The notes under the pieces are model-generated. The model was not told where the DNA came from and searched no databases. It was given only the letters and a program-made list of their open reading frames with translations. The position numbers and the translations under genes are program-made. From Gammaproteobacteria bacterium (lineage in GTDB: Bacteria; Pseudomonadota; Gammaproteobacteria; CAIRSR01), in contig CAUYTW010000111.1 of NCBI GenBank assembly GCA_963575715.1, forward strand, positions 1 to 64,000: a DNA stretch of 64,000 nt. Direction: 5' to 3'. Of the stretch, positions 4,877-23,477 are shown one piece after another. How positions within the stretch are numbered: the stretch's first letter is position 1; the number at the start of each line of letters is the position of its first letter.

Positions 4877-4999
4877 GGCGCAAGCCGAGTTGCCCTTACA
4901 GGCTGACAGCCGGGAAAGACCGGCTCCTAATTCTGAAAACCGCCCGCTTTCCTCTCTGCCCGGCTAAAGCCGGGGTGGCTCTCTCGCCGGCATTTGGTG
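4877..4999 (+). repeat. Palindromic dispersed repeat R1, copy a
   Basis: This stretch between ntrX and hrpA shares with the copy at 28268 the left edge GGCGCAAG-CGAGTTGCC, CTTACAGGCTG and GCCGGGAAAGACCG, then a TTTCCTCT segment and the hairpin GGCTAAAGCC. It ends just before the hrpA stop codon. The strong stems may act as a transcription terminator for the converging genes. Its family is described in the findings. Confidence 0.7.
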
Positions 5000-5000
5000 A

Positions 5001-9006: not shown

Positions 9007-9025
9007 TAGGAGTTACGCAGTTGAA
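9007..9025 (+). repeat. Direct repeat at left edge of the RM island
   Basis: The sequence TAGGAGTTACGCAGTTGAA occurs here and identically at 23108-23126, in the same orientation, enclosing the whole restriction-modification island. GAGTTAC here is followed 12 bases later by GTAACTC, making a small inverted repeat. It resembles insertion-sequence ends in general style, but no transposase is present. It could be an attachment or recombination site or the remnant of an IS pair. Confidence 0.7.
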
Positions 9026-9061
9026 TTTGTAACTCTATACAGGATTGAGTTTTTTTCTGTC

Positions 9062-9102
9062 ATTCTGCGCGGAGGTCGCGTTAGCGACCGGAGTCGCAGA
9101 AT
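9062..9102. promoter_or_regulatory. Palindromic hairpin upstream of the first HEPN gene
   Basis: The outer arms ATTCTGCG and CGCAGAAT (8 bp) enclose an inner stem GGTCGC-GTTA-GCGACC (6 bp), separated by short purine-rich bulges. It lies in the 100-bp leader of the HEPN gene starting at 9126. It could be an RNA hairpin, an operator or a small dispersed repeat; no function can be assigned. Confidence 0.5.
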
Positions 9103-9125
9103 CTAGAACAAACCGAGAAACAACC

Positions 9126-9548
9126 ATGATCGACTATGAGAAACTTCAAAAATCTCTCGAACATCTGGAGCGGCAGTTTGCCAACTATCAGATGTCACAG
9201 GATCGCCCAGAACTCACGGATCTGGACCGCGAGGCTATTGCTGAATCCGTCATCCAACGTTTCAAGACTTGCTACGACACCTTGTGGAAAGACCTTAAAC
9301 GCTACCTCATCGAAGAAACCGGATTGTCGGATATTCCAAATAGCCCCAAGCCCATTCTCAAGTTAGCGGGTCAAAATGATCTCTTTGCCTCCCCGGTCGA
9401 GCAGTGGTTGAAGTATGCCGACGCCCGCACCGGCACCGCGCATGATTACAGCGGAGAAAAGGCGGCGGAAGCATTGCTGATCGTCAAAGACTTTATTGAT
9501 GATGCCATCGGGCTTTATCAAACAATGACGGGAACGACTTGGGAATGA
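9126..9548 (+). CDS. HEPN-domain protein, HepT-like toxin (nucleotidyltransferase substrate-binding family)
   Basis: A 140-residue all-helical protein with the HEPN RNase signature R-x4-H-x-Y seen as RTGTAHDY (R101, H106, Y108). It resembles the HI0074/HepT family, in which the toxin cleaves RNA and the paired MNT protein silences it by adding AMP to the motif tyrosine. The start at MIDYEKL was chosen over an upstream in-frame codon, because the extra 27 residues would be read out of a palindromic leader. Its stop overlaps the MNT start as ATGA, so the pair is translationally coupled. It is not closely similar to the HEPN at 15449 although both sit before an MNT gene and an hsdS. Confidence 0.85.
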   Translation: MIDYEKLQKSLEHLERQFANYQMSQDRPELTDLDREAIAESVIQRFKTCYDTLWKDLKRYLIEETGLSDIPNSPKPILKLAGQNDLFASPVEQWLKYADARTGTAHDYSGEKAAEALLIVKDFIDDAIGLYQTMTGTTWE

Positions 9549-11113
9549 CGACCGCCATCGACATCACGACGGAGCAACGAAAAATACTGCTTGCGTTCCT
9601 GCGACAATTCATCCCCGGCGTTGTCGTGTGGGCCTATGGCTCGCGGGTGAAATGGACAGCACGGATTAATTCTGACCTTGATCTCGTGGTGTTCGCTACT
9701 CCTGCCCAACGTTCCTTGGTTTCTGAACTCAAAGACGCTCTGGCGGAAAGCAATCTTCCTTTCCTTGTTGACCTCCACATTTGGGACGACGTGCCCGAAC
9801 GTTTTCACGAGATTATTCGCAAGGAATATGTCGTGCTTCAGGAGGTAGAGGAGAAATCAGGGGGCTGGGTTATGGCGGGTGATTTGTGGATAAAAACTAC
9901 GATTGGTGAGCAAGCCACGCTTCAGCGAGGTATCGATATTACAAAGGCAGAACAGCGCGATGGTAAAGTGCCCGTTGTTTCATCTGGGGGTATATCAAGT
10001 TATCATGATACAGCAGCGGTAAATGGTCCTGGAGTTATTCTTGGAAGAAAAGGAGTTGTCGGAAGTGTTTTCTTTGTTAATGAAGACTACTGGCCACATG
10101 ATACAAGCCTTTGGGTAAAGGATTTTCACAGAAATTATCCTCGTTTCGTCTATTATTTCTTCAAATCTGTTGCTCCGCAAATTGCTAAGATGGATGTTGG
10201 GTCTGCGAATCCAACACTAAATCGCAATCATGTTCATCCGCTACCGATCATTTGGCCCCCCCTCCCCACCCAAAAAGCCATCGCGCATATTCTTGGCACG
10301 CTGGATGACAAGATCGAATTAAACCGGCGCATGAATGCAACGTTGGAGGCAATGGCGCGAGCAATTTTCAAGTCGTGGTTCGTGGATTTCGATCCGGTGC
10401 GCGCCAAAATGGACGGGCGTGTGCCTTTTGGAATGGATGAGGAAACGGCGACGTTGTTTCCCGATGGTTTTCAGGATTCGGAGTTGGGGTTGATTCCGAG
10501 GGGGTGGGGGGTAAAAATGATTAGAGATATTGGGAATATTATCTGCGGAAAAACACCACCAACCAAAATTTCAAAATACTACGGAGATGATATTCAATTC
10601 ATTACCATTCCTGACATGCACGGAAATATTTTTGTTATAGAGACAGCTCGAAAATTATCTTATGCTGGAGCGAATTTACAGGATAATAAAACTATCCCTC
10701 CTGAAAGCATATGTGTTAGTTGTATTGCGACACCCGGATTGGTGATAATTACCTCGGAAAATTCACAGACTAACCAACAAATAAATTCTATTGTTCCTTA
10801 CGCAAAGGATGAGACGTATTTTTGGTATTGGGTCATGACCGGTCTTGGCACTGAAATTGCCGCTAATGGAAGTGGCGGGTCGGTGTTAATAAACCTTAGT
10901 AAAGGTAGATTTGAAACACTTCAAGTCATTCAACCGCCGCACTCCCTCATTTGCGCTTACCACACCGCAGTGCGCCCGTTGTTTGAAACCATCCTCGCGA
11001 ACACCCACCAATCCCGCACCCTCGCCACCCTACGCGATACGTTGCTGCCGAAATTATTGAGCGGTGAATTGAGCGTGGCGGCTATGGAATCAAAAATTGA
11101 TATTGCTAATTAA
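9545..11113 (+). CDS. hsdS: MNT nucleotidyltransferase domain in one frame with type I specificity subunit HsdS
   Basis: One 522-residue reading frame with two parts. Residues 1-105 are a minimal nucleotidyltransferase (MntA-like antitoxin): GS at 32-33 and Asp at 44 and 46 form the GSx10DxD motif, with a third acid in FLVDLH. From about residue 110 it is a type I RM specificity subunit: first target domain, conserved block LPTQKAIAHILGTLDDKIEL, central FKSWFVDFDPVRAK, second target domain, and C-terminal block ATLRDTLLPKLLSGELSVA. An internal ATG at 9872, preceded by GGGGG, matches the start region of the second hsdS (16682), so HsdS may also be made alone. The fusion could be genuine, or result from a deletion that joined the two genes. 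It has no adjacent hsdM; the one at 13836 could serve both. Confidence 0.85.
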   Translation: MTTAIDITTEQRKILLAFLRQFIPGVVVWAYGSRVKWTARINSDLDLVVFATPAQRSLVSELKDALAESNLPFLVDLHIWDDVPERFHEIIRKEYVVLQEVEEKSGGWVMAGDLWIKTTIGEQATLQRGIDITKAEQRDGKVPVVSSGGISSYHDTAAVNGPGVILGRKGVVGSVFFVNEDYWPHDTSLWVKDFHRNYPRFVYYFFKSVAPQIAKMDVGSANPTLNRNHVHPLPIIWPPLPTQKAIAHILGTLDDKIELNRRMNATLEAMARAIFKSWFVDFDPVRAKMDGRVPFGMDEETATLFPDGFQDSELGLIPRGWGVKMIRDIGNIICGKTPPTKISKYYGDDIQFITIPDMHGNIFVIETARKLSYAGANLQDNKTIPPESICVSCIATPGLVIITSENSQTNQQINSIVPYAKDETYFWYWVMTGLGTEIAANGSGGSVLINLSKGRFETLQVIQPPHSLICAYHTAVRPLFETILANTHQSRTLATLRDTLLPKLLSGELSVAAMESKIDIAN

Positions 11114-11116
11114 ACC

Positions 11117-11422
11117 ATGCCAAAACTTTACGAATACTTTGGGCTGATTGTGATGTTCTATGCCAATGAACATGAACCGGTACATGTGCATGGCAAATGC
11201 CAAGGCCGAGAATGTCGCGCTGAAATTATCATGCAAAATGGTGTTGTCGTTGAAATTCGCTACAGTCCTGTTTCTGGACGACTCCCGCTGACTCCCCACG
11301 AAATGCGTAATTTTGAAGAAATTGTCAGCGTTCGTGCGGAAGAAATTATTACAAAATGGATCGACTTTTTCGTTTTGAATAAACCTGTCAAACCGGAACA
11401 TATTACTCAGAGGCTCAAATGA
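11117..11422 (+). CDS. DUF4160 domain protein
   Basis: A 101-residue protein with the DUF4160 pattern: an N-terminal YFGLIVMFYANEHEPVHVH strand with conserved His, then a central strand and a helix reaching EIITKWIDFF. The function is unknown. DUF4160 is commonly found next to DUF2442, as here with a 4-bp overlap, and the pair is often suspected to be a toxin-antitoxin or addiction-like module. It starts 4 bases after the hsdS stop, so it is probably co-transcribed with it. Confidence 0.8.
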   Translation: MPKLYEYFGLIVMFYANEHEPVHVHGKCQGRECRAEIIMQNGVVVEIRYSPVSGRLPLTPHEMRNFEEIVSVRAEEIITKWIDFFVLNKPVKPEHITQRLK

Positions 11423-11700
11423 TTCCTGCCATTATTAATATTATCAGCGCCGAACATATAAAGGACTACCGTATTCGTTTAGGTTTTGACGATAGCACGG
11501 AGCAAATCGTCGATTTTCAGCCTTTTCTATCACATGCCCGCCATCCCGATATTCGGGCTTGGCTTGATCCGGCACGGTTTATGACGTTTCGTCTCGAATA
11601 TGGCGAATTAGTTTGGGGCGATTATGCGCTTTGTTTTCCAATCGCTGACTTGTATCGCAACCAAATTGAGCCACATGTTTTGCTTAAAACAGCGGCTTGA
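11419..11700 (+). CDS. DUF2442 domain protein
   Basis: A 93-residue protein of the DUF2442 type, recognised by RIRLGFDDSTEQIVDFQPFL and the ELVWGDYALCFPIADLY ending. It overlaps the DUF4160 gene by ATGA and so forms a coupled pair with it. The molecular role is not known. The frame ends exactly where the 18-bp island box (11701) begins, so the pair looks like a discrete cassette. Confidence 0.8.
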   Translation: MIPAIINIISAEHIKDYRIRLGFDDSTEQIVDFQPFLSHARHPDIRAWLDPARFMTFRLEYGELVWGDYALCFPIADLYRNQIEPHVLLKTAA

Positions 11701-11718
11701 GCATGGCGAGCAACAAAA
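11701..11718 (+). repeat. Cassette-boundary box, copy 1
   Basis: GCATGGCGAGCAACAAAA occurs here and identically at 19250-19267. In both places it comes just after an accessory gene pair that follows hsdS, and just before a stray hsdS 3'-end fragment. This suggests a shared module boundary or recombination point. Confidence 0.7.
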
Positions 11719-11728
11719 AATAAAATCC

Positions 11729-11779
11729 CATGCGCGACACGCTGCTGCCGAAATTATTGAGCGGGGAATTGAGCGTGGC
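11729..11779 (+). pseudogene. hsdS 3'-end fragment, copy 1
   Basis: About 50 bases match the hsdS codons for RDTLLPKLLSGELSVA found at the ends of both intact hsdS genes (11030-11085 and 17925-17980). No upstream hsdS body is attached. It appears to be the original end of an hsdS gene left behind when a cassette entered, or a duplicated end created by recombination. Confidence 0.75.
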
Positions 11780-11824
11780 TTCTTTTTTATCCCCAAATTA
11801 CAAAGAGGACAAAGAGGATTAAAA

Positions 11825-12877
11825 ATGTACAAAACAATTGCCTTGTTTAACCATAAGGGAGGAGTCAGCAAGACGACCACGACATTCCATCTTGGTTGGA
11901 TGCTGGCGGAAAAAGGATACCGGGTCGTGATGATTGATACTGATCCACAGTGCAATCTTAGTGGTTTAGTGATTGATTACGATTCATCAAAAGAATTTGA
12001 TTCTTTTTATTCAGATCATCCTAATGCCAATATAAAAACGGCGTTGGCTCCGGCATTTGAGTCTCAGCCGAAACCTATTGAAACGATTGAATGCGTTGAA
12101 GCAACAGGTAGGTCTGGACTTTTTCTTGTTCCCGGTCATGTGAATCTCAGCGAATATGAGGTCACGTTGGGAATAGCGCAAGAACTATCCGGATCCATTC
12201 AAGCATTAAAGAATTTACCTGGCGCATTTCATTTTTTTGTGCAACAAATGGCCACCGCGCAAAAAGCCGATTACGTTCTAATTGACATGAGTCCTAGCCT
12301 TGGAGCAATGAATCAAAATATTCTCATGACCAGCGATTACTTTTTAGTGCCTACAGCACCGGACTACTTCAGCGTCATGGCTATTGATTCACTTTCTAAC
12401 ATTTTACCAAAATGGATCGAATGGGCGAAGAAAGCAGCGAACGCTGAAGTTTTTAAGTCTGCAAATTATCCGTTTCCTGAATTTTCGCTCAAATTTCTCG
12501 GTACGGTCATTCAAAGATATCGCCCTCGACAATCAAAACCGACGGTAGGATTTCAGAAATGGATTGATCAAATAAACTCAGGAGTCGTAAGCAGATTAGC
12601 ACCCGCATTAAAAAAGCATGGTGCCATATTGTCTTCAACCATTTACAAAGCAGCAAACGTAAATGAGAGCATGGGCTATTGTTTATCAGAAATTCCTGAT
12701 TTTAATTCTTTAATCACAGCATCACAAAATCACCAAACACCCGTATTTGCTCTTACTGAGGATATGCTCGGTCATGTTGGGACTGTGTTAGATCAGGATA
12801 TAAAAAAGCGTGATGAATTTAGAAATACATTTGATACCTTAGTTAATCGTATCATTACCCTTACAAACCATGAATAG
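11825..12877 (+). CDS. ParA-family ATPase paired with a HEPN protein
   Basis: A 350-residue P-loop ATPase with the deviant Walker A HKGGVSKTTTT (K11, K16), MIDTDPQCNLSG and VLIDMSPSLGAMNQN, as in ParA/Soj/MinD proteins. ParA proteins normally drive DNA partition, but no parB or origin is nearby. Its stop overlaps the start of a HEPN gene, which suggests a toxin-like pair. The ATG at 11825 was chosen because the Walker A starts at residue 10, as usual for the family; the longer upstream frame runs through the hsdS fragment and DUF2442. A broken copy of its 5' third lies at 23143. Confidence 0.85.
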   Translation: MYKTIALFNHKGGVSKTTTTFHLGWMLAEKGYRVVMIDTDPQCNLSGLVIDYDSSKEFDSFYSDHPNANIKTALAPAFESQPKPIETIECVEATGRSGLFLVPGHVNLSEYEVTLGIAQELSGSIQALKNLPGAFHFFVQQMATAQKADYVLIDMSPSLGAMNQNILMTSDYFLVPTAPDYFSVMAIDSLSNILPKWIEWAKKAANAEVFKSANYPFPEFSLKFLGTVIQRYRPRQSKPTVGFQKWIDQINSGVVSRLAPALKKHGAILSSTIYKAANVNESMGYCLSEIPDFNSLITASQNHQTPVFALTEDMLGHVGTVLDQDIKKRDEFRNTFDTLVNRIITLTNHE

Positions 12878-13481
12878 CGCACTACAGCAGTTTCGTACTA
12901 ATCTTTTGCGTGCCCGTGAATTGGGTACACTCGCGCTTGCAATGGCCAAAATTACCACGTCTGCAATCGATGTGAGTGATATGTGGCGTGCTCAAATTGT
13001 CTTAGGTGTGAGTGCTCTTGATTATTTAATTCATGAATTAACTCGAATAGGAATGATAGAGATATCGAAAGGATCCCGACTCAAGACCGATTCATTTTCA
13101 AAATTCAAGTTGCCATTGGATGCTATTGAGCATGGGTTTAATGGACAACCACATGAAATGTGGCTTGGAGAAACGGTTCGTGAGATGCACTCATCATTTA
13201 GCTTTCAACAGCCTGACAAAATTGCTGATGCTATTCGTTTAATTTCGCATGCCAAGTTATGGGATGAAGTCGGAAAAGAATTATCAATGCCTGCCAAAGA
13301 AGTAAAACTTCGCCTTGGATTGATTGTAGACCGCAGAAATAAAATTGCGCATGAATCTGATATGGATCCAACGAATCCTGGCTTTCGTTGGCCTATTAGT
13401 GAAACGATGGCAAATGATTCGCTTGATTTTATTGAACGAATCGCAGAAGCCATATGTAAGATAGTCATCTTATGCCCTTGA
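12870..13481 (+). CDS. HEPN-domain protein (RiboL-PSP-HEPN-like) coupled to the ParA gene
   Basis: A 203-residue helical protein with the motif DRRNKIAHESD, containing R156-x4-H161, the catalytic signature of HEPN RNases of the RiboL-PSP class. It overlaps the ParA gene by 8 bases. HEPN proteins with this motif are often RNA-cutting toxins or defence effectors, so a model in which the ATPase controls the HEPN is reasonable, but it is inferred. The last codons run into the hsdR remnant that starts at 13472, so the natural C-terminus may have been altered. Confidence 0.72.
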   Translation: MNSALQQFRTNLLRARELGTLALAMAKITTSAIDVSDMWRAQIVLGVSALDYLIHELTRIGMIEISKGSRLKTDSFSKFKLPLDAIEHGFNGQPHEMWLGETVREMHSSFSFQQPDKIADAIRLISHAKLWDEVGKELSMPAKEVKLRLGLIVDRRNKIAHESDMDPTNPGFRWPISETMANDSLDFIERIAEAICKIVILCP

Positions 13482-13764
13482 AGAAGCCACCCTGGGCTGG
13501 CTCTTATGATGCTCTTTTGCGAATGAATCCGCCGTGAAGGCAATGGAAGACGACAAGTTGAAAGTGATAGCGGCGGAACTCATCACCCAGGTGAGAAAGA
13601 GCGTAACTATTGACTGGACGCTGCGGGAAGGTGCGCGGGCAAAAATTCGGGTGATGGTAAAACGCATTCTGAATAAATACGGCTATCCGCCAGACCTTCA
13701 GGAAAAGGCAGCGCAAACCGTTCTTGCACAGGCGGAGTTACTTTGTGCAAATTGGACAAGTTAG
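13472..13764 (+). pseudogene. hsdR: Internally deleted hsdR remnant
   Basis: The 5' end matches the start of the intact hsdR (ATGCCC, then TTGAAGAAGCCACCCTGG as at 20033-20051). It then jumps straight to the last ~250 bases of hsdR (matching 22846-23104). About 2.8 kb is missing, and the reading frame is shifted by one base near TTTTGCG. The C-terminal codons are otherwise almost identical to intact hsdR, including the end of the gene at GGACAAGTTA. It is a dead copy and shows that a second hsdR once stood between the ParA/HEPN pair and hsdM. Confidence 0.88.
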
Positions 13765-13779
13765 CAATTAATATTGCTC

Positions 13780-13808
13780 TTGACGTAATGAAACGATAGG
13801 AAGCTAAT
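13780..13808 (+). promoter_or_regulatory. Candidate sigma-70 promoter of the hsdM operon
   Basis: TTGACG (13780) and GCTAAT (13803) are separated by 17 bases, with the hsdM start 28 bases after the -10. The -35 matches consensus at 5 of 6 positions and the -10 at 4 of 6. It lies just after the hsdR remnant, the only gap ahead of the coupled operon. Confidence 0.4.
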
Positions 13809-13835
13809 CTCTACATCTTGCAGGATTAAAATTCA

Positions 13836-15452
13836 ATGGCGAAAAATAAATTAAGCAAAAATAATAACGAAGGGTCTGCAAATCTCGGATTTGAGGCTAA
13901 ACTTTGGCTCGCAGCCGATAAGCTCCGCAATAACATGGATGCGGCGGAATACAAACACGTTGTTCTCGGCCTTATCTTCCTGAAATACATCTCGGATACT
14001 TTCGAGGAACACCGCGCAACGCTAATTGCCGGTCAGGGTGAGTATGAAGGTGCAAATCCAGAAGACCCGGACGAATACAGAGCCGAGAATGTCTTTTGGG
14101 TGCCGACGGTTGCCCGCTGGCCTCACCTCCAAGCTAACGCCAAGCAGCCAACTATTGGCAAGCTCGTTGATGACGCCATGGTTGCCATTGAGAGCGACAA
14201 CCCGCGACTCAAAGGGGTTCTGCCCAAAGACTACGCCCGCCCTGGCTTGGACAAGCAGCGTCTTGGCGAACTCATTGATTTGATTGCAACGATTGTCCTG
14301 ACCGCCGCCAATGAAGGCGAGAAGACCCACCGCTCAGTCGATCTCCTTGGTCGTGTGTATGAGTATTTCCTAACCCGTTTTGCCAGCGCCGAGGGCAAAA
14401 ACGGCGGCCAGTTCTACACGCCGTCCTGTGTCGTGCGCTGCCTGGTCGAGATGCTCGGCCCCTACAAAGGCCGTATCTACGACCCCTGCTGTGGCTCGGG
14501 CGGCATGTTTGTTCAGTCGGAAAAGTTCGTGGAGGCCCACGGGGGCAAAATCGGCGATATCGCTATTTATGGCCAAGAAAGTAACTCCACCACTCGCCGC
14601 CTGGCCATTATGAATCTGGCCATTCGTGGCATTGAGGCCGACTTCGGCCCCGAACACGCCGATACCTTCCGCCACGATCTTCATCCCGATCTGCGCGCCG
14701 ATTATGTCCTTGCCAATCCTCCTTTCAACGACTCCGACTGGTTCCGCAAGGACGACGATGTACGCTGGCAATTCGGTGTTCCGCCCAAGGGCAACGCCAA
14801 CTTCGCCTGGGTGCAGCACTTCATCCACCACCTTGCGCCCGCAGGCATAGCCGGCTTCGTCCTTGCCAATGGCAGCATGTCCTCCAACCAGTCCGGTGAA
14901 GGCGACATCCGCAAAGCGCTCATTGAGGCCGATCTGGTCGATTGCATGGTCGCGCTCCCCGGCCAGCTTTTTTATTCCACGCAAATTCCCGTTTGTCTTT
15001 GGTTTGTAGCGAAGAACAAAACCGCCGACGCGAAACGCAATTTCCGTGACCGTCGTCAACAGACGCTATTCATCGATGCCCGCAAACTTGGCACATTAAT
15101 GGATCGCGTCCATCGTGAATTGACCGACGCCGATCTGGAAAAAATCACCACCACTTATCATCATTGGCGCGGAGAACAAGTCGCGGGCCAATACTTGGAT
15201 ATTCCAGGCTTTTGTAAGTCCGCCACTACTGCTGAAATCGCCACGCATGGATTCGTCCTCACGCCGGGTCGTTATGTGGGCGCGGAAGAAATCGAAGATG
15301 ACGGAGAACTCTTTGAAGAAAAAATGGCGCGGTTAGTGGCGGAGTTAACCGGACAATTTGCTGAATCCGCAAAATTGGAGAAACAAATTAAACAAAATTT
15401 TATGCAATTGGGATTCATTCAATCACAAATACCACAATCACAAATACCATGA
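13836..15452 (+). CDS. hsdM: Type I restriction-modification methyltransferase subunit HsdM
   Basis: N6-adenine methyltransferase subunit of 538 residues. The N-terminal helical HsdM_N domain ([20 protein letters not shown]) is followed by the SAM-binding motif [10 protein letters not shown] (about residue 216) and the catalytic motif NPPF (about residue 293). With HsdS it methylates the host site; with HsdR it forms the restriction complex. The last residues repeat [10 protein letters not shown], a small in-frame duplication. The stop overlaps the next gene (HEPN) as ATGA, so the toxin-like genes are translated from the same message. Confidence 0.95.
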
Positions 15453-15886
15453 ACTTGAATACCGATCACCTCAAACGCTGTATTGATACCTTGCACTCGT
15501 CGCTTTTGTGTTATGAGCAGGCTGCATCGGACAGCATCCATCAGGAGATTTTCCGCAATGCTATTGTCAAGGGTTACGAATTAACGCAAGAAATCAGCTT
15601 CAAGCTTTTAAAGAAATCGCTACGTGATTACGGACATAGTGCAAAAAAATTGGATGCCACACCCATCAAGGAATTGTTACGCCTGGCTGCCACGCACGGA
15701 TTCATGACGCTGGAGGAAGTCGAGCGCTGGTTCGTCTATCGTGATAATCGCAATAACACCGCCCATGACTACGGCGAAAACTTCGCCATGCAAACGTTAC
15801 GCTTGATCCCTAATTTTATTAATGACGTAACGCGGCTCGAATCTCTATTGCGCCTCCGCTACAGCGCAGGAAATGACAATGGCTGA
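15449..15886 (+). CDS. HEPN-domain protein, HepT-like toxin, inside the hsdM-hsdS operon
   Basis: A 145-residue nucleotidyltransferase substrate-binding (HI0074-type) protein. The RNase motif is RNNTAHDY (R101, H106, Y108), spaced as in HepT, and the long first helices are typical. It starts inside the hsdM stop codon, and its own stop lies inside the start region of the MNT gene, so all three are coupled. It falls in the same family as the HEPN at 9126 but the sequences differ widely outside the motif, so the two pairs are not recent duplicates. Confidence 0.87.
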
Positions 15887-16202
15887 ACGGGCGCTGGAAC
15901 AATTAGATATGCAACCTCGGCATTTGGCGTTATTACGCGAATTGTTGCGTCAGCATCTGCCGCACACAGAAATATGGGCCTACGGCAGCCGTGTTAATGG
16001 CGACGGGCACGAAGCCAGCGATCTTGATTTGGTTGTACGTCATCCCGCCGACTTAAAACAGGAAACGCCCGCCTTGTGGGAAATGAAAGATATTTTGGTG
16101 GAAAGTAATCTGCCGATTCGTGTAGACCTAGTTGATTGGGCGCAGATTCCGGCTAGTTTTCATCGTGAGATTGAGCGGGCCTATGTGGTGGTGCAGCAGT
16201 AG
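15879..16202 (+). CDS. MNT-domain nucleotidyltransferase, MntA-like antitoxin
   Basis: A 107-residue minimal nucleotidyltransferase. AYGSRVNGDG with GS at 36-37 and SDLDL with Asp at 48 and 50 make the GSx10DxD motif, and VDLVDW supplies the third acid. MntA-type proteins add AMP to the tyrosine of the partner HEPN and so block its RNase. I chose the ATG at 15879 over 15873 because AGGAA lies about 8 bases before it. In contrast to its counterpart at 9545, this one ends with a normal TAG and is not joined to hsdS. Confidence 0.87.
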   Translation: MAERALEQLDMQPRHLALLRELLRQHLPHTEIWAYGSRVNGDGHEASDLDLVVRHPADLKQETPALWEMKDILVESNLPIRVDLVDWAQIPASFHREIERAYVVVQQ

Positions 16203-16212
16203 GAGGAAGAAT

Positions 16213-16623
16213 ATGTATCAAGATTTGCTCCGTGATTTTATGAATAAGCAAAATTTAGGTGGTAAGGCGTGGGAACATGCTTTTATCATCGATCTTCTAA
16301 ATAAATATCCTATTCAGGATTGCTCCATTCATTGTTTCCATTACCAACAGATGTTGGAATGCTTGTTTAAGCATATTTTAGAAACGAAAACCGAACTCAC
16401 TCTTTATTCTAAAACGCACGATTTGAATAAATTGTTAGAGCAAGTCATTAGTTCGACTGCGTTCAAAACCGATAAATCTAAATATCGTGGCGATTTAATC
16501 GGTATTACCGTATGCGCTGCGGAATATAGATATAATTTTGATATCAATTGTAAAACGTATTTTGAAATGGTCAGCGTGTGTGATAATTTATTGAACGAGT
16601 TAATTATTTTTGAAAAATCATAA
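16213..16623 (+). CDS. Second HEPN-domain protein between MNT and hsdS
   Basis: A 136-residue protein with HEPN-fold features: CFHYQQMLECLFKHIL followed by THDLNKLLEQV, and AAEYRYNF near the end. These match the stand-alone HEPN (PF05168) pattern that normally accompanies a nucleotidyltransferase. The R-x4-6-H RNase motif is not visible, so it may be a non-catalytic or regulatory HEPN. GGAGG at 16202, 7 bases before the ATG, is the strongest ribosome site in the operon. The equivalent position upstream of the other hsdS has no such gene; homologous sequence resumes at GAAATCAGG, 10-30 bases before each hsdS ATG. Confidence 0.7.
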   Translation: MYQDLLRDFMNKQNLGGKAWEHAFIIDLLNKYPIQDCSIHCFHYQQMLECLFKHILETKTELTLYSKTHDLNKLLEQVISSTAFKTDKSKYRGDLIGITVCAAEYRYNFDINCKTYFEMVSVCDNLLNELIIFEKS

Positions 16624-16681
16624 TAGCAACATTATTGAGCAGGATAAGGTGGTGATTCAGAAATCAGGAAGGGGGCGTGGT

Positions 16682-18001
16682 ATGGCGGCGAAGCTCTTGG
16701 AAACAACCGTTGGTGAAGTCTGCAAAATCTTCGATGGTCCTCACGCAACGCCAACGAGAATTGATTCTGGTCCCATATTTTTGGGGATAACTAGTCTGAA
16801 CAAGGGACGTATTGATCTATCCACAAGTGACCATGTTTCAGAAGAGGACTTCGTAAAATGGACTCGTCGAGTGATACCGCAACCAGATGATGTCGTATTT
16901 TCTTATGAGACCAAGTTAGGTGAGGCCGCGATTATCCCAAAAGGTCTTCGATGCTGTCTTGGTCGGCGTATGGGGTTGATGCGACCAGACTCAAAAAAAA
17001 TAGATAGCCGCTTTCTGCTCTACTACTACCTCGGTCCTGAATTTCAAGATGTGATTCGTGAACGCACAATCCATGGAAGTACGGTCGAGAGAATAGCTTT
17101 AATTGAGTTTCCAACGTTTCCACTAAGAATCCCCCCCCTCCCCATTCAAAAAGCCATCGCCCACATCCTCGGTACGCTGGACGACAAAATCGAATTAAAC
17201 CGGCGAATGAATGCAACGCTGGAGGAAATGGCGCGGGCAATTTTCAAGTCGTGGTTCGTGGATTTCGATCCGGTACGCGCAAAAATGGACGGGCGGGTGC
17301 CTTTTGGAATGGATGAGGAAACGGCGGCGTTGTTTCCCGATGGTTTTCAGGATTCGGAGTTGGGGCAGATTCCGAGGGGGTGGAGGGTAACAACACTGGG
17401 CGCGTGTATTGGTTTTCGGAGTGGTTTCTCTTTCAAAAGTCAGGATTGGCAGGACTCGGGAGTTCCAGTCGTAAAAATTGGCTCGGTCAAGCCGGGCATC
17501 ATCGACCTGACCCAAGTCAGTTACGTTTCAGAGGAAATTGCTCAACAAGCCGCACGCTATCGCTTGAGCACTGGCGATATGCTTATCGGAATGACGGGCT
17601 ACGTGGGCGAAGTGGGTCTTGTTCCGCCATCGAACAATCCGCCTTTGCTGAATCAGCGAGTCGGTAAGTTCGTAATGGCAACACCGGGAACTGCATCCTT
17701 GGCATTTTGGTATTGCACGACCAGGCAACCTGAATTTAAGACATTCGTTGAAACGCACTCACATGGCACAGCTCAGGCGAACGTAAGCGGTGAATCCATC
17801 ATGGAATTTCCGCTGGTAGTGCCGCATTCTGCAATTCTCGATGGATTCAACCGCAACTGTCAGCCGTTACTCAACCGCATTCTCGCCAACCACGGAGAAT
17901 CCCACACCCTCGCCGCCCTGCGCGACACACTACTGCCGAAATTATTGAGCGGGGAATTGAGCGTGGCGGCTATGGAATCAAAAATGGGAACCAATGTATG
18001 A
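16682..18001 (+). CDS. hsdS: Type I restriction-modification specificity subunit HsdS
   Basis: A 439-residue DNA-recognition subunit with two target-recognition domains separated by the conserved spacer (LPIQKAIAHILGTLDDKIEL, FKSWFVDFDPVRAK) and closed by ALRDTLLPKLLSGELSVA. The spacer and end are almost identical to those of the HsdS at 9872, but both target domains differ, so another DNA site is recognised. I chose the ATG at 16682 (GGGGG 6 bases upstream) over a longer frame that overlaps the HEPN gene. Its stop overlaps the next gene as ATGA. Confidence 0.92.
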   Translation: MAAKLLETTVGEVCKIFDGPHATPTRIDSGPIFLGITSLNKGRIDLSTSDHVSEEDFVKWTRRVIPQPDDVVFSYETKLGEAAIIPKGLRCCLGRRMGLMRPDSKKIDSRFLLYYYLGPEFQDVIRERTIHGSTVERIALIEFPTFPLRIPPLPIQKAIAHILGTLDDKIELNRRMNATLEEMARAIFKSWFVDFDPVRAKMDGRVPFGMDEETAALFPDGFQDSELGQIPRGWRVTTLGACIGFRSGFSFKSQDWQDSGVPVVKIGSVKPGIIDLTQVSYVSEEIAQQAARYRLSTGDMLIGMTGYVGEVGLVPPSNNPPLLNQRVGKFVMATPGTASLAFWYCTTRQPEFKTFVETHSHGTAQANVSGESIMEFPLVVPHSAILDGFNRNCQPLLNRILANHGESHTLAALRDTLLPKLLSGELSVAAMESKMGTNV

Positions 18002-18447
18002 ATCAAACCGATTTTGAGGCGCTGTTAAGCGATACGACAAAGTGTATAGTCAATGACATTACTTGGATGGATGACGAGGATCATTCACCAACATTGGAAT
18101 TTAGGGTTGAAGTGAAATCAGATGCGGGGTATCCGATTTTCATTAAGGGTAGCTACAACACGCTTGCAAGCACATTAAGTTATACGCTGATTCATCGTGG
18201 CAGTGGTCGAATTTATGCATTGGATCTCGGCAAGGATCATCATAATCCAAGCTGTACTAATACGGGCGAAAAACACAAACATCGTTGGAATGAGCCAGTA
18301 CGTGATAAAGAAGCCTATGTGCCGGATGATATTACCGCACCATTAAATGATCCCGTCGCGGTCTGGAAGCAATTCTGCGTAGAGGCCAGTATTCAACACA
18401 ACGGCGTACTGTATCCGCCGCAACCTTACCAGATGATTATCTTATGA
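17998..18447 (+). CDS. Hypothetical protein, DUF6978-like
   Basis: A 149-residue soluble protein. The segment LGKDHHNPS...GEKHKHRWNEP and the ending DDITAPLNDPVAVWKQFC resemble DUF6978 proteins, which are of unknown function and are often coded beside DUF1828 proteins. The His-rich centre could bind metal, but this is only suggested. It is coupled to hsdS upstream and to the DUF1828 gene downstream by ATGA overlaps. Confidence 0.65.
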   Translation: MNQTDFEALLSDTTKCIVNDITWMDDEDHSPTLEFRVEVKSDAGYPIFIKGSYNTLASTLSYTLIHRGSGRIYALDLGKDHHNPSCTNTGEKHKHRWNEPVRDKEAYVPDDITAPLNDPVAVWKQFCVEASIQHNGVLYPPQPYQMIIL

Positions 18448-19214
18448 ATCAATCATTTTGCGAAACAATTCGCCAAAACTTGGGCCTGTTATTTTCTTGT
18501 AATTGGGTAAATGGTTATATCCGAATTCGCACGCCATTTCTTTATCCAGATGGAGACGTGATCGATCTATTTGTACAAGAACAGGATGGATATATAACTA
18601 TCACGGACTTAGGAGAAACGCTGCGGTGGTTGCGAAATCAAAGTATTGCGCCACGTCGATCTCCTAAACAGACACGGATTATTGAAGATATTTGTCTGAC
18701 GCATGGTTTAGAATTTTTTCGTGGAATGCTTTTGGCGCGAGTCAAGCCCAATGATCATATTGCGGCGGTGCTGATGCGTATTGCCCAAGGGTCTCTGCGG
18801 GTAGCGGATATTTGGTTCACCATGCGGACACGGTCGCTAGAAAGTGTGACGGATGAAGTAGGCGTTTTTCTATTGGATAAAGGCGTGGCGTTTGAGCGTA
18901 ACCAATCTTTGGTTGGGCGTTCTGGTAGAACGTGGCGTCCTGATTTTCATACGCGGATGTTAAAAAGTAGCTCGCTTGTTTATGTTTTGAGCACAGGTAG
19001 CCGGGCGGCTGCAAAAAATGTTACGGAGCATGTTTTAGCGTCATGGTATGACTTAAATAATTTTCGCATTGGTCCAGAAAGTTTACGTTTTATCTCGCTA
19101 TTCGATGACACTATGGATGTATGGAGTGATAATGATTTTAATCTTTTGCAGGATCTCTCGGTAATTACGCGATGGTCACAACCCGACGAATTTATCGAAT
19201 TATTGGCGGCTTAG
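18444..19214 (+). CDS. DUF1828/DUF1829 domain protein
   Basis: A 256-residue protein. The N-terminal DUF1828 part (RIRTPFLYPDGDVIDLFV, ITDLGETLRWL) is followed by a DUF1829-like C-terminal part. Such proteins occur on prophages and mobile islands; their function is unknown, and association with toxin-antitoxin or nuclease modules has been suggested. It is the last gene of the coupled operon hsdM-HEPN-MNT-HEPN-hsdS-DUF6978-DUF1828. The island box and hsdS fragment follow within 100 bases. Confidence 0.75.
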   Translation: MNQSFCETIRQNLGLLFSCNWVNGYIRIRTPFLYPDGDVIDLFVQEQDGYITITDLGETLRWLRNQSIAPRRSPKQTRIIEDICLTHGLEFFRGMLLARVKPNDHIAAVLMRIAQGSLRVADIWFTMRTRSLESVTDEVGVFLLDKGVAFERNQSLVGRSGRTWRPDFHTRMLKSSSLVYVLSTGSRAAAKNVTEHVLASWYDLNNFRIGPESLRFISLFDDTMDVWSDNDFNLLQDLSVITRWSQPDEFIELLAA

Positions 19215-19249
19215 GCCACCAAAGTTGCACGGCAACCCAATACCGGCTG

Positions 19250-19267
19250 GCATGGCGAGCAACAAAA
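19250..19267 (+). repeat. Cassette-boundary box, copy 2
   Basis: Identical to the 18-base box at 11701-11718 and in the same relation to its surroundings: after the accessory pair, before an hsdS 3'-end fragment. Similarity continues for a few A-rich bases after the box. Confidence 0.7.
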
Positions 19268-19279
19268 CAAAACTATAAA

Positions 19280-19323
19280 ACCCCTGCTGCTGCCGATGCC
19301 GAAATTATTGAGCGGGGAATTGA
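19280..19323 (+). pseudogene. hsdS 3'-end fragment, copy 2
   Basis: The stretch CTGCTGCCGATGCCGAAATT and the following ATTGAGCGGGGAATTGA match the LLPKLLSGEL end of hsdS, with a small internal duplication (CTGCCGATGCCG). It cannot be translated as part of any hsdS. It mirrors the fragment at 11729. Confidence 0.7.
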
Positions 19324-19346
19324 TGCCATGATTCTATTCTTAATCC

Positions 19347-19673
19347 TTATTCAAAAAGTGTAATAACTTTTGCCAACACTTCATCCATGATCGAACCAGG
19401 TAAGGTATCGACTTTGCGGGCATTACGGGCGGTCAAGTCGAGCACTCGGGGTTGATCACAGCGAACTACGCCGGTGGTTTTGACGCCGGTTAAGGGCACT
19501 GCGAATCCTAAGCGGCGCGCAAAATCACCCCCTTTGGTAATAGGTAGAATCACGGGTAGTTTAGTTACCTCGTTGAACTCAATCGGCGATATAACCAGCA
19601 CGGGACGGCTACCGCTTTGTTCATGGCCAGCCGTCGGATCGAGCGACACCAGGTAAATTTCGCCACGCTTCAT
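19347..19673 (-). CDS. MazF/PemK-family endoribonuclease toxin
   Basis: A 108-residue toxin with MKRGEIYLVSLDPTAGHEQSG at the start, PVLVISP, and the VRCDQPRVLDL strand near the end, as in MazF, PemK and ChpB. Family members cut mRNA at short sites. The frame overlaps the antitoxin gene upstream by 4 bases. It is complete and shows the usual length. This pair is on the strand opposite to the rest of the island and lies between the DUF1828 gene and hsdR. Confidence 0.92.
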   Translation of the reverse strand: MKRGEIYLVSLDPTAGHEQSGSRPVLVISPIEFNEVTKLPVILPITKGGDFARRLGFAVPLTGVKTTGVVRCDQPRVLDLTARNARKVDTLPGSIMDEVLAKVITLFE

Positions 19674-19924
19674 AATTCCCTACCTACTGCTGGTGCATCC
19701 ACCCATTCCCGTTCCTCGGCAGGTTGCGGTTGCGAGTAGTCCGAGGCGGCCAGCAACTCAGCGAGCGTATAGCGTGGTCGTGGGCAAGGGTTGACCACCA
19801 GACAGCCGTGATCGATGGTCAATCCTACCGGTGCGTCAGCTTGCAAGCGCAGTTGATCGAGAAAAGCCGGTGGGACAGTCAGCATGACCGATCCGCCGAC
19901 CTTGCGGAGGTGAGTTGTGTGCAT
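19670..19924 (-). CDS. MazE/AbrB-family antitoxin
   Basis: An 84-residue antitoxin with an N-terminal swapped-hairpin DNA-binding domain (HLRKVGGSVMLTVPPAFLDQL) and an acidic C-terminus likely to bind the MazF-like toxin. Antitoxins of this type repress their own promoter together with the toxin. The short AT-rich gap to the divergent hsdR contains a palindrome (19958) that could be its operator, so the pair may also influence hsdR expression. Confidence 0.88.
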   Translation of the reverse strand: MHTTHLRKVGGSVMLTVPPAFLDQLRLQADAPVGLTIDHGCLVVNPCPRPRYTLAELLAASDYSQPQPAEEREWVDAPAVGREL

Positions 19925-19957
19925 TGATATATTTTTCGTAAGTTAAAATTATATAAA

Positions 19958-19968
19958 AGTATAATACT
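19958..19968. promoter_or_regulatory. Candidate operator between MazE-like gene and hsdR
   Basis: AGTATAATACT is an odd palindrome (arms AGTAT/ATACT) in an AT-rich 84-bp divergent region. It also overlaps TATAAT on the + strand, but no -35 at the right distance was found. It is a plausible autoregulatory site for the antitoxin; this is not shown. Confidence 0.35.
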
Positions 19969-20008
19969 ATATCTAAATTTTCAACCTTACATAAGGCAGA
20001 AAATATTC

Positions 20009-23000
20009 ATGCCCTTAAACGAATCCACCCTTGAAGAAGCCACCCTGGAGTGGTTTTCAGAACTCGGCTATGCCATCGCCCACGGTCCGCACCTCGCCCC
20101 GGGCGAAACGGCGGCGGAGCGTGAATCATTCGGTGATGTTGTACTCGTGGAACGTTTACGTGCGGCCATCTGGCGATTGAACCCGGCCATTCCCGAAGAA
20201 TCCCGGGAAGAGGCAGTGCGTAAAGTGTTACGGGTGGGAACACCGGCGCTAGTGCAAACGAACCGCGCCTTTCATCGGATGTTGCGCGACGGCGTGCCGG
20301 TGGAATATCCGCGCCCTAGTGGAGGTATTGCTGGAGATTATGCGCGACTGGTGGATTTTGACAATGTAAACGCGAACGACTGGCTAGTGGTGAATCAGTT
20401 TACGGTAATCGAAGGGCAACATAATCGGCGACCGGACATTGTAATTTTCGTCAATGGACTGCCGCTGGCTGTAATTGAGTTAAAGAATTCGGCAGATGAA
20501 AAAGCAACCCTCTGGAGCGCCTACACCCAATTTCAGACGTACAAAGCCGAAATTGCCGCGTTACTGCATTACAACGAATTGCTGGTGGTGTCGGACGGTG
20601 TACAAGCACGCATTGGCTCGCTCACAGCGAATCAGGAGTGGTTTAAGGTCTGGCGCACAATTGACGGTGAGGACGACGCGCCGAAAACGGCGTTGGAACT
20701 TGAAGTGCTAATACGCGGGGTGTTTGAGCGTCAGAGGTTTCTTGATCTGCTCCAACATTTTATCGTCTTCGAGGAAGACCCCGACTCGGGCACGCTGCAC
20801 AAAATCATCGCGGGCTACCACCAATTCCACGCGGTGAATGCCGCAGTGGAAAAAACCGTCCGTGCGAGCGGCCAATCAGGTGATCGTCGTGCGGGGGTGG
20901 TCTGGCATACGCAGGGCAGCGGAAAAAGTTTTTCGATGCTTTTCTATGCGGCCAGAATTGCGCGCCATCCCCCAATGCAAAATCCAACATTAGTTATTTT
21001 GACCGACCGTAATGATTTGGACGATCAACTTTTCGGTCAATTCCAACGCTGTCATGACCTTCTCGGGCAAATGCCGGTGCAGGCCGCAAATCGAGGGAAT
21101 CTCCGCGAATTGTTAGCCGTGGCCAGTGGCGGAGTAGTCTTTACCACAATCCAAAAGTTTCTCCCGGAGAAGGGCGAAAAAATGCACGGCCTGAGCGACC
21201 GCCGGAACATCATTGTGATTGCGGATGAGGCACACCGCAGCCAATACGATTTGATCGACGGCTTCGCCCGACATCTGCGCGACGCGCTGCCGAATGCGTC
21301 GTTCATTGGTTTTACCGGTACGCCCATCGAAAAGACCGACGCGAATACCCGGGCGGTGTTTGGCGATTACATCAGCATTTACGACATTCAGCGTGCCGTT
21401 GCCGACCAGGCCACGGTGCCGATCTATTACGAAAGTCGTATTTCAAAACTCAGCATGAATGCTGCCGAATTACCAAAGATTGACGCTGAATTCGAGGAGA
21501 TTACCGAAGGAGAAGAGCTGACAAAAAAGGAAAAGCTCAAGACCAAATGGGCCGCGCTGGAGGCGTTAGTAGGTGATCAGAAACGTATCGCACTCATCGC
21601 CGATGATCTGGTAACGCACTTCGAGAAGCGTGTAGAGGCAATGGACGGGAAAGCGATGATTGTATGCATGAGTCGCCGTATCTGCATAGATCTCTACAAG
21701 GCCATCATCTCGTTACGTCCTAGCTGGGCCAGTGCCAAAGATGACGATATTGATACCGAGAAGAGTCAAGCCTGTGTAGTGAAAGTGGTGATGACCGGCG
21801 GCGCTGATGATGGTCCTGATTGGCAGCCACACATTCGCAACAAAGAAAAGCGCCGAAAACTGGCCAACCGTTTCAAGGATAGCCGCGATTCGTTTCGTAT
21901 AGTGATCGTGCGCGATATGTGGCTGACTGGCTTTGACGCACCCTGCTTGCACACCATGTATGCCGACAAGCCGATGCAAGGTCACGGCCTCATGCAGGCA
22001 ATCGCCCGTGTAAACCGCGTTTTTCGTGACAAGCCCGGCGGATTGGTCGTGGATTATCTGGGCCTCGCGAATCAACTCAAACAGGCGCTTGCGACTTACA
22101 CCGAAAGCGGTGGAAAAGGGGATCCAACTTTCGACACGGCACAGGCCATCGCGGTGATGCTGGAAAAATACGGCATTGCCTGCGATCTGTTACACGGCTT
22201 CCACTGGGATAAATGGACTACAGGTAAACCAGCGGAACGTCTTGCCTTAATTCCTGCAGGGCAAGAGCACATCCTCGAACAAAAGGACGGCAAGAAACGC
22301 TTTGTGCAAGTCGTGACTGCACTCTCCCGTGCTTTCGCGCTCTGTGCCGCGAGCGACGAGGCCACGGAAATTCATGACGATGTGAGTTTCTTCCAAGCCC
22401 TTCAAGCCGCACTGAATAAACAAAGTGGTAGTAGCAAGCGGACACCTGAACAAATCGATGCCGCCATTCGCCAGCTTGTGTCTAAAGCCATCACCACGGA
22501 AGGCCAAGTGATCGATATCTTTACTGCCGCAGGATTACCAAAACCGGATATTTCCATTCTAAGCGATCAGTTCCTCGTTGAAGTGCGCGGAATGAAACAT
22601 AAAAATGTTGCCGCCGAATTATTAGCGAAATTACTCAAAGATGAAATCAAAACACGCTCGAAATGCAATCTCGTACAAAGTCAACTTTTTTCCGAAAAAC
22701 TCAAGAAAACTCTTAATACTTACCACAATCGCGCCATATCTTCGATTGAAGTTCTCGAAGAACTGATTACGCTGGCGAAGGAAATGGACACCGCAACGAA
22801 ACGCGGCCAAGATCTCGGTTTAACCGATGACGAAATCGCATTTTATGATGCTCTTGCCGCGAATGAATCTGCTGTGAAGGCGATGGGAGACGACAAGTTG
22901 AAAGTGATAGCGGTGGAACTCATCACCCAGGTGAGAAAGAGCGTCACCATTGACTGGACATTACGAGAAGGTGCACGGGCAAAAATTCGAGTGATGGTAA

Positions 23001-23104
23001 AACGCATTCTGAATAAATACGGCTATCCGCCAGACCTTCAGGAAAAAGCAGTGCAAACCGTTCTTGCACAGGCGGAGTTACTTTGTGCAACTTGGACAAG
23101 TTAA
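20009..23104 (+). CDS. hsdR: Type I restriction endonuclease subunit HsdR
   Basis: A 1031-residue restriction and translocation subunit. The N-terminal nuclease centre is visible as [10 protein letters not shown]...AVIELKN (about residues 141-158). The SF2 helicase motor has motif [11 protein letters not shown] (about 303), motif II DEAH (about 405) and motif III FTGTPI. The C-terminus is the HsdR helical region. It cuts foreign DNA after ATP-driven translocation when bound to HsdM and HsdS. It is separated from hsdM-hsdS by the MazEF-like pair and has its own start region. Its last 250 bases are repeated in the remnant at 13472. Confidence 0.95.
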
Positions 23105-23107
23105 CAA

Positions 23108-23126
23108 TAGGAGTTACGCAGTTGAA
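23108..23126 (+). repeat. Direct repeat at right edge of the RM island
   Basis: Identical 19-base partner of the sequence at 9007, located 4 bases after the hsdR stop. The two repeats bracket about 14.1 kb. To its right only the ParA remnant remains before the chromosomal-type gene for a pseudopilin. Confidence 0.7.
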
Positions 23127-23142
23127 AAATAGCAAGTCATTC

Positions 23143-23468
23143 AGTGGTTTAGTGATTGATTACGATTCATCGAAAGAATTTGATTCTTTTTATTCAGATC
23201 ATCCTAATGCCAATATAAAAACGGCGTTGGCTCCGGCATTTGAGTCTTAGCCGAAACCTATTGAAACGATTGAATGCGTTGAAGTAACAAGCAGGTCTGG
23301 ACTTTTTCTTGTTCCCGGTCATGTGAATCTCAGCGAATATGAGATTACGTTGTGAATAGCGCAAGAACTATCTGGATCCATTTAAGCATTAAAGAATTTA
23401 CCTGGCGCATTTTAATTTTTTTGTGCAACAAGTGGCCACCGCGCAAAAAGCCAACTACGTTCTAATTG
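23143..23468 (+). pseudogene. ParA-gene remnant
   Basis: About 325 bases match the ParA gene at 11960-12284 at high identity. Several codons have become stops: CAG to TAG at 23248, GGA to TGA near 23354, and CAA to TAA near 23385. The 5' end (including the Walker A) and the last two thirds are missing. It borders the pseudopilin gene directly. It shows that a second ParA module once followed hsdR. Confidence 0.9.
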
Positions 23469-23477
23469 CCAGTGCTT

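Follow-up and report, generated by a model that had tools for sequence, protein, structure and literature searches.

A type I restriction-modification locus with two tandem frames, varied modules in its slots and short gene ends between them

We analysed a 64,000-nucleotide stretch of DNA (positions 1 to 64,000 of contig CAUYTW010000111.1, assembly GCA_963575715.1, from a gammaproteobacterium of the GTDB lineage CAIRSR01), which we call the window; the source assembly comprises 3.7 Mb in 363 contigs. Positions 9045-23104 of the window are occupied by two tandem type I restriction-modification (RM) frames, in which equal slots carry different modules. Slot 1 lies between hsdM and hsdS and slot 2 between hsdS and hsdR.

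Two tandem type I frames

Frame 1 reads HEPN, MNT in frame with hsdS1, DUF4160, DUF2442-like, an 18-bp box, an hsdS stub, ParA, HEPN and an hsdR remnant. Frame 2 reads hsdM, HEPN, MNT, a small HEPN-like open reading frame (ORF), hsdS2, DUF6978, DUF1828, the box, an hsdS stub, mazF and mazE on the opposite strand, and hsdR (Table 1). Sequence comparison and a Pfam scan of the island, covering 19 ORFs, confirmed the original prediction, which had been made from the sequence alone: all the elements it names are there. As predicted, each hsdS is followed by an accessory pair of genes, then by the box, a stray hsdS 3' end and a further module before hsdR (ParA with a RiboL-PSP-type HEPN protein in frame 1, MazF with a weak MazE in frame 2), and by Pfam the modules in equal slots are different proteins. 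The near-identity claimed for the shared parts was also found, in the hsdS spacer (262 nt at 92%), the hsdS end (108 nt at 85%) and the hsdR end (250 nt at 93%), as was an hsdR that is broken in frame 1 and intact in frame 2.

The two frames are parallel as predicted, subject to some corrections. Frame 2 has HsdM, HsdS and HsdR domains in one operon, whereas frame 1 does not have all three genes intact: its hsdM is absent, and of hsdR1 only the start and the 3' end remain (26 nt at 92% to hsdR2 near the start, 250 nt at 93% at the end). A HEPN/MNT pair had been placed immediately upstream of each hsdS. Both pairs are present, but the frame 1 MNT is joined in frame to hsdS1 (ORF 9539-11113) and is not a separate gene, and in frame 2 the small ORF stands between MNT and hsdS2. 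The stop codon of the frame 1 HEPN gene overlaps an ATG of the MNT frame (ATGA at 9545), and that of the frame 1 stub lies 2 nt ahead of an ATG of parA (11825). The DUF6978 and DUF1828 genes are adjacent and overlap, and they match proteins A and B of the PADLOC candidate system PDC-M24.

Table 1. Features of the island, in window coordinates
Feature	Position	Strand	Evidence
19-bp end of dispersed MITE-like repeat, TAGGAGTTACGCAGTTGAA (island left edge)	9007-9025	+	copies genome-wide
Frame 1: HEPN toxin-like gene, HI0074/HepT-like, RTGTAHDY	9126-9548	+	PF08780 6e-18 (ORF from 9045); 1jog HI0074 3.7e-5
MNT-HsdS1 in-frame fusion	9545-11113	+	Pfam Polbeta and Methylase_S; MNT PF18765 1.2e-7
DUF4160 protein (slot 2)	11117-11422	+	PF13711 6.5e-11
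DUF2442-like protein (slot 2)	11419-11700	+	PF10387 1.5e-4, just under curated cut-off
18-bp box	11701-11718	+	identical to frame 2 copy
hsdS 3'-end scar, reads MRDTLLPKLLSGELSV...	11730-11822	+	47 nt at 94% to hsdS1 end; HsdS C-terminal profile 34.1 bits
ParA-like ATPase (second module)	11825-12877	+	PF13614 (AAA_31) 4.1e-31, ORF from 11624
RiboL-PSP-type HEPN protein	12870-13481	+	PF18735 4.7e-7
hsdR1 remnant, start and 3' end, middle deleted	13472-13764	+	PF11867 C-terminal match 2.7e-28
Frame 2: hsdM	13836-15452	+	PF02384 2.9e-105; PF12161 1.9e-26
HEPN toxin-like gene, RNNTAHDY (slot 1)	15449-15886	+	PF08780 8.6e-19
MNT antitoxin-like gene, separate	15873-16202	+	PF01909 1.8e-10
Further small HEPN-like ORF	16213-16623	+	PF05168 0.0019, below cut-off (scanned from 16132); unmatched in PADLOC
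Possible scar of an MNT C-terminus, in frame with hsdS2, NIIEQDKVVIQKSGRGRG	16628-16681	+	C-terminal end of MNT profile, 7.0 bits
hsdS2	16682-18001	+	PF01420 1.7e-21, ORF from 16610
DUF6978 protein, PDC-M24A	17998-18447	+	PF22398 5.7e-13; PADLOC 6.9e-72
DUF1828 protein, PDC-M24B	18444-19214	+	PF08861 2.4e-14; PADLOC 1.8e-108
18-bp box	19250-19267	+	identical to frame 1 copy
hsdS 3'-end scar	19287-19331	+	27 nt at 100% to hsdS2 end; profile 8.7 bits, under the 9-bit threshold
MazF/PemK toxin	19347-19673	-	PF02452 8.9e-27
MazE-like antitoxin	19670-19924	-	PF04014 0.0041, below cut-off; adjoins mazF
Intact hsdR	20009-23104	+	PF04313, PF18766, PF11867
19-bp repeat end, second copy	23108-23126		copies genome-wide
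Decayed parA fragment after hsdR	23143-23471	+	279 nt at 96% and 61 nt at 92% to frame 1 parA; beside 19-bp repeat end

Slots and gene-end scars across related hsd loci

Homologous loci of related genomes, close strains not among them, were gathered through HsdM: the best 80 of 585 from named genomes, plus two sets from other genomes, and in addition a third set that is partly of the window's own class. In the individual searches 52 of 58, 40 of 47, 14 of 19 and 60 of 77 matches were taken as loci; those omitted belonged to the window's own genome, were already included, lay near a contig end or were surplus. The class of one genome (G370) gave zero new loci. From 172 database loci and the window we kept 116 hsdS-hsdR pairs, two of which are the window frames, and from the third set 63 of 74 loci.

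Over all sets, with both window frames included, a slot of at least 200 bp, a length that by itself is no proof of a gene, lies between hsdS and hsdR in 161 of 179 cases and between hsdM and hsdS in 64 of 178. The corresponding counts were 50 and 21 in the first 52 hsdM-hsdS-hsdR loci (window frame 2 included), 106 of 116 and 47 of 115 in the enlarged set of 116 pairs (both window frames included), and 55 of 63 and 17 of 63 in the third set. The slot ORFs of at least 90 amino acids in the first two sets (64 + 210) fell into 154 families, with 116 singletons and 8 families in both slots; 154 is an upper bound, because the mechanical choice of ORFs takes in some antisense ones (one is antisense to the window DUF4160 gene). 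The DUF6978/DUF1828 pair also adjoins hsdR in one database locus, L102. These results show that the two slots are general and that, in the hsdM-hsdS-hsdR loci of this subfamily, they are occupied by varied modules.

The comparison of gene order that had been proposed along with the original prediction thus found insertions at the same two slots, with varied modules, and the slot tenants are not a single old conserved operon. The idea of a scaffold that collects cassettes at fixed places survives insofar as the slots are real, widespread and varied. It is not new, because hsd loci that host defence genes are in print, with the hsdS-hsdR site among the published ones (PMC12255303, PMC11411939; of all papers cited here by PMC number excerpts were available, and our statements refer to these excerpts), and because one of the window modules is the already listed candidate PDC-M24. 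The suggested addiction or abortive-infection role is plausible for the HEPN/MNT and MazEF modules and hypothetical for the others.

Several slots contain, after one module and before the next, the final part of hsdS with its stop codon; we call such short gene ends scars. When the last 130 nt of each hsdS were compared with its own hsdS-hsdR interval, L026, L048, L037, L052 and both window frames beat 100 of 100 shuffles. A DNA score of at least 42 was reached in 7 of 106 intervals, whereas the reverse complement, a mid-hsdS control and the best of 200 shuffles each gave 0; at a score of at least 34 the four counts were 9 (forward), 1 (reverse), 0 (mid-hsdS) and 9 (shuffles). L159, L164 and L167, candidates from the DNA comparison only, were not counted among the scars.

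We also scanned the slots of 179 pairs (161 hsdS-hsdR and 64 hsdM-hsdS slots of at least 200 bp) with profiles of the gene ends at a threshold of 9 bits. The profiles were built from the first two sets, and counts there are not independent of them. HsdS C-terminal matches numbered 13 in hsdS-hsdR slots and 0 in hsdM-hsdS slots (0 and 1 in threefold shuffles), HsdR N-terminal matches 16 and 0 (shuffles 5 and 0), and HsdM C-terminal matches 0 and 8 (shuffles 1 and 0); all 37 of these matches were on the coding strand. HsdM N-terminal matches were 0 and 0 in the two slot types (shuffles 0 and 1), and hsdR 3' ends were rejected as scars, since HsdR C-terminal matches were at noise level (2 and 0 versus 3 and 0 in threefold shuffles). 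In the third set, the frozen profiles found 4 HsdS C-terminal and 10 HsdR N-terminal matches, all in the predicted slot and strand, or 3 and 8 without L280 and the doubtful L253; the third set and the first two have no hsdS end above the 0.9 mark in common. The scars of L280 are not independent, because its slot is nearly the same as that of L204. Counted once per scar, with the double matches of L048 and L079 merged, L215 left out and L253 kept, there are 34 scars in 28 loci. Taken together, these data show that the modules of a slot can have, between them, short end pieces of the very genes that flank that slot.

The stop codon of a scar often abuts the start of the next module. The scar end lies within -12 to +25 nt of an ORF start in 21 of 34 scars, whereas for stop codons in these slots the figure is 308 of 4158; this stricter control replaced a looser one (1579/4326), and its rule counts the window parA as uncoupled, since the longer ORF call was used. 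We give the exact probability of this coupling no weight, because the scars are not all independent. L048 is layered, with an hsdS scar, an hsdR scar and a chimera of hsdR start and hsdS end, each followed by another ORF, and in both L048 and L052 the hsdR start is joined in frame to the hsdS end.

Two side observations concern single loci. L280 and L204 carry a nearly identical hsdS-hsdR slot, scar included, behind hsdS genes that differ largely in their last 600 nt. L168 holds hsdM (cut by the region taken), HEPN and MNT-HsdS, and after these hsdM again, an ORF of about HEPN size, a split hsdS and hsdR, a tandem-like arrangement that the tandem count missed.

An MNT domain in frame with HsdS

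On the predicted domains, the frame 1 HEPN gene is followed by an MNT part fused to HsdS and by no free antitoxin gene, whereas MNT is free in frame 2. The fused ORF, read from 9539, encodes 524 amino acids, with MNT at about residues 6-101, a linker at 104-113 and then HsdS. The MNT part adjoins the HEPN gene and carries the GSX10DXD motif (GSRVKWTARINSDLD), as in HepT/MntA pairs; by reading of the ORF, the frame 2 MNT next to its HEPN gene carries it too. The HEPN proteins of both frames have the RX4-6H(XY) motif of such pairs, and its R, H and Y residues are invariant across 16 aligned HEPNs. An AlphaFold2 model of the fusion, built on a 39-row alignment in which the MNT part is covered by only 4 rows, had a mean predicted local distance difference test score of 88.6, with two folded parts and the linker below 50. 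Foldseek matched the model to HsdS (1yf2, 2.7e-24) and HI0073 (1no5, 9.8e-7), and at about 2e-3 to 7e-3 to MntA-HepT entries (6m6u, 7bxo, 7aer); among the PDB titles of the matches are some on a HEPN toxin in tri-AMPylated form together with its MNT antitoxin.

The fusion was found in 28 loci including the window, 17 of the others being in the first two sets (131 HsdS ORFs of at least 300 amino acids) and 10 in the third (68 such ORFs). GSX10DXD is kept in 28 of 28, and in 27 of 28 a HEPN ORF with RX4HXY lies just upstream, its end reaching the start of the fused ORF or running past it; the overlap in L102, L190, L212, L225 and L270 arises because the fused ORF, in its longest reading, begins within HEPN. 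The fused ORFs of L192, L195 and L217 are cut or short. On plasmid pZMOB01 of Zymomonas mobilis the fusion is annotated plainly as 'restriction endonuclease subunit S', with an HI0074-family gene upstream and hsdR downstream, and on two Acetobacter plasmids MNT and hsdS are separate but adjacent genes. The PADLOC specificity model PDLC03138 spans most of the fused length, and such proteins have therefore been clustered before. These findings suggest that HsdS itself may be the antitoxin.

Two loci depart from the common form. The 750-amino-acid HsdS ORF of L231 (6664-8916) has two MNT-like stretches and, by the test used, no upstream HEPN with RX4HXY. In L195 (about 4958-5683) an ORF of 241 amino acids joins MNT straight to the central HsdS region, with MNT kept and HsdS shortened.

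How modules may accumulate, and what the fusion may do

We lean, with considerable reserve, towards the view that the window holds a type I RM island caught in the middle of accumulating modules, with varied slots, scars, collapse of tandem frames and an MNT-HsdS guard. An hsd locus would take up a second one by recombination, giving two tandem frames as in the window, and a deletion between the redundant cores would then merge both module sets in one frame. Such a collapse would leave behind the beginning of the upstream hsdR, the end of the downstream hsdS, or both, and these scars, translated into short peptides, might relay translation along the operon. A tandem hsdS-module-hsdR-hsdM-hsdS-module-hsdR array that loses everything from its first hsdR start to its second hsdS end would therefore yield the in-frame chimeras of L048 and L052. 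In the window the two frames stand next to each other, and frame 1 has lost its hsdM and the middle of its hsdR. Collapse is inferred from the scars, because a repeated core gene was found only in the window.

Several points weigh against this view. By the counting rule used, that repeat occurs in 1 locus only, and the hsdS part of the L052 chimera is 24 nt only. The excess in the DNA comparison fades at a score of at least 30 (12 forward, 2 reverse and 2 mid-hsdS matches, with 42 intervals having an equal shuffle), and L159, one of the 7 strong matches, scores 41 on the reverse strand and has no profile match. Earlier shuffles of the first two sets gave 2 HsdS C-terminal and 2 HsdR N-terminal matches in hsdS-hsdR slots, and the weakest HsdR matches (9.1 to 10.9 bits, in L048, L290, L070 and L280) may be due to chance, because the threefold shuffles gave 5. 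HsdM C-terminal scars were 0 in the 17 third-set slots, and the slot-1 rule was thus not replicated. The HsdM match of L215 resembles hsdM's own displaced end and the HsdR match of L253 hsdR's own displaced start, and 13 of 34 scars are uncoupled by the rule used. As to the fusion, an HsdS-only start at ATG 9872 could also give unfused HsdS, and the MNT scar at hsdS2 is weak: 0 of 1000 shuffles scored as high, yet its E value was 1.5 when scanned among HsdS ORFs.

Collapse of tandem frames would be the likeliest route, and its main rival is the direct insertion of a donor fragment. Such a fragment, made up of an hsdS end, a module and in some cases an hsdR start, would recombine into the 3' end of the resident hsdS or the 5' end of the resident hsdR, with no tandem intermediate, much as islands enter the 3' ends of tRNA genes. 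We consider direct insertion rather unlikely, although it would fit the hsdS scars that hold the last part of the gene only and start 8-34 nt past the stop codon of the previous module, as in L026, L037, L048 (second scar), L204, L270 and L280. It would also fit the window frames, which are alike at the hsdS end and at the box with the stub and unlike in between, and the rarity of tandem frames by the counting rule. In L189 (169 nt), L052 (119 nt) and window frame 2 (72 nt), however, the scar lies farther from the previous stop, no integrase or recombinase is among the 19 ORFs scanned with Pfam, and the L048 and L052 chimeras together with the tandem frames of the window are explained more simply by collapse.

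It is also conceivable, but in our judgement improbable, that this is an ordinary defence island in which selection keeps toxin-antitoxin and other modules in the hsd operon, with the scars as neutral debris and the MNT fusion as harmless read-through. Embedding in hsd loci is indeed published (PMC12255303, PMC11411939, PMC12707154), and PDC-M24 is a listed candidate, but each kind of scar is confined to the slot that its own gene flanks and to one strand, and the hsdS and hsdR scars turned up again in a fresh set. The fusion recurs across 28 loci, all of which retain the MNT motif and 27 of which have the HEPN motif. The two hsdS genes and two hsdS fragments lying close together might instead recall a phase-variable hsdS, with specificity shuffled by inversion between copies. 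This explanation is largely refuted and deserves hardly any credence: the copies and stubs are direct repeats, 0 of the 10 inverted-repeat pairs listed join hsdS copies, the stubs contain the gene end only, and no invertase is among the ORFs scanned.

Returning to the MNT-HsdS guard, MntA AMPylates a tyrosine of HepT. The MNT part of HsdS would AMPylate the HEPN protein and so keep it silent; loss or shut-off of HsdS would free HEPN and make the cell addicted to the restriction locus, and the arrangement might act as a PrrC-like guard against inhibition of the restriction complex. In frame 1 both HEPN and MNT-HsdS1 are open although hsdM is gone and hsdR deleted, as addiction would predict, but one case proves little. 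The sequence upstream of hsdS2 weakly resembles an MNT end, as though newer modules had come between the parts of an older fusion. More tentatively, and with more doubt than belief, we propose that HsdS could be the antitoxin in a sizeable share of these type I loci, where loss of the complex would kill or arrest the cell, and that further modules would arrive by repeated fusion and collapse of frames, the scars recording the layers. If true, a cell would die or stop growing once its restriction complex is lost or disabled, and the fusion would directly link the restriction enzyme's own subunit to the control of a suicide RNase. The published descriptions examined, in the excerpts available, contain no explanation of how defence genes enter and stack in restriction operons. 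The scars would offer a readable record of this stacking and an automatic way to find module borders.

A 2024 preprint by Payne et al. reportedly describes 'guilt by embedding' of defence genes in type I RM operons. Known cases include DarTG2 between hsdS and hsdR (PMC12255303), TgvAB, and RloF between hsdR and hsdS (PMC11411939), and PrrC inside ecoprrI (PMC12707154); PDC candidate names are tied to the embedding approach (PMC12988326). As with DarTG2 and TgvAB, unrelated modules are lodged among the hsd genes of the window, such modules often occupying the hsdS-hsdR interval, and its PDC-M24 is in the PADLOC candidate set, but its gene-end scars between layers and its tandem, half-decayed frames are absent from the published descriptions examined, as far as the excerpts go. 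The short hsdS gene described in PMC10030836 was not taken as a remnant by its authors. In the literature searched (mostly open-access, no bioRxiv preprints), no title or abstract start points to gene-end scars or to the MNT-HsdS fusion. Embedding of defence genes in restriction operons is thus already known, and the scars and the fusion are details not found in that literature.

The adjacent HEPN (RX4HXY) and MNT (GSX10DXD) of the window are shared with HepT/MntA and HI0073/HI0074, in line with the Foldseek matches to 1no5, 6m6u, 7bxo and 7aer; a HEPN-MNT pair is treated in PMC4621449. Many HEPN families in R-M operons are reported in PMC3710099, in which 'hsdS' and 'specificity subunit' occur 0 times. 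The same source describes PrrC as a fusion of a HEPN protein and an ABC-ATPase; no PrrC-type ORF (ABC-ATPase and nuclease) is among the 19 scanned. Like PrrC in EcoprrI (PMC12707154), the window would encode, within a type I locus, an RNase-type effector whose activity depends on the condition of the restriction complex, but PrrC is activated when the complex is inhibited, whereas the window HEPN would be silenced by an enzyme domain within HsdS. The window also has a MazF/PemK domain, as in MazEF/PemK, and ParA-HEPN pairs are known with other families: ParA/Soj ATPases stand in an operon with the HEPN family MAE_18760, and RiboL-PSP-HEPN with ParB (PMC3710099). In the window these modules differ in being the ones nearest hsdR, and the HEPN protein is of the RiboL-PSP family with a ParA-like partner.

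The window HsdM has 7 matches in its own genome, its own included, on several contigs, indicating other type I or related genes there. The 18-bp box occurs 2 times in the window versus 0.07 expected (up to 3 mismatches). As a dispersed element, the box with its stub was rejected, there being no match outside the locus in 56 genomes (its own included) or 104 loci. A likeness of the box to hsdM starts is only suggestive (5 of 88 hsdM starts score at least 20, random 0.4%), and the HsdM N-terminal profile has zero matches in any slot. The 19-bp repeat was likewise rejected as the island's ends, since TAGGAGTTACGCAGTTGAA occurs at 454 places in its own genome with at most 2 mismatches, whereas a search of 3 relatives gave 0. 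Among the places listed, many form inverted pairs with a spacing of about 95-200 bp, and the repeat probably reflects a burst of a miniature inverted-repeat transposable element (MITE).

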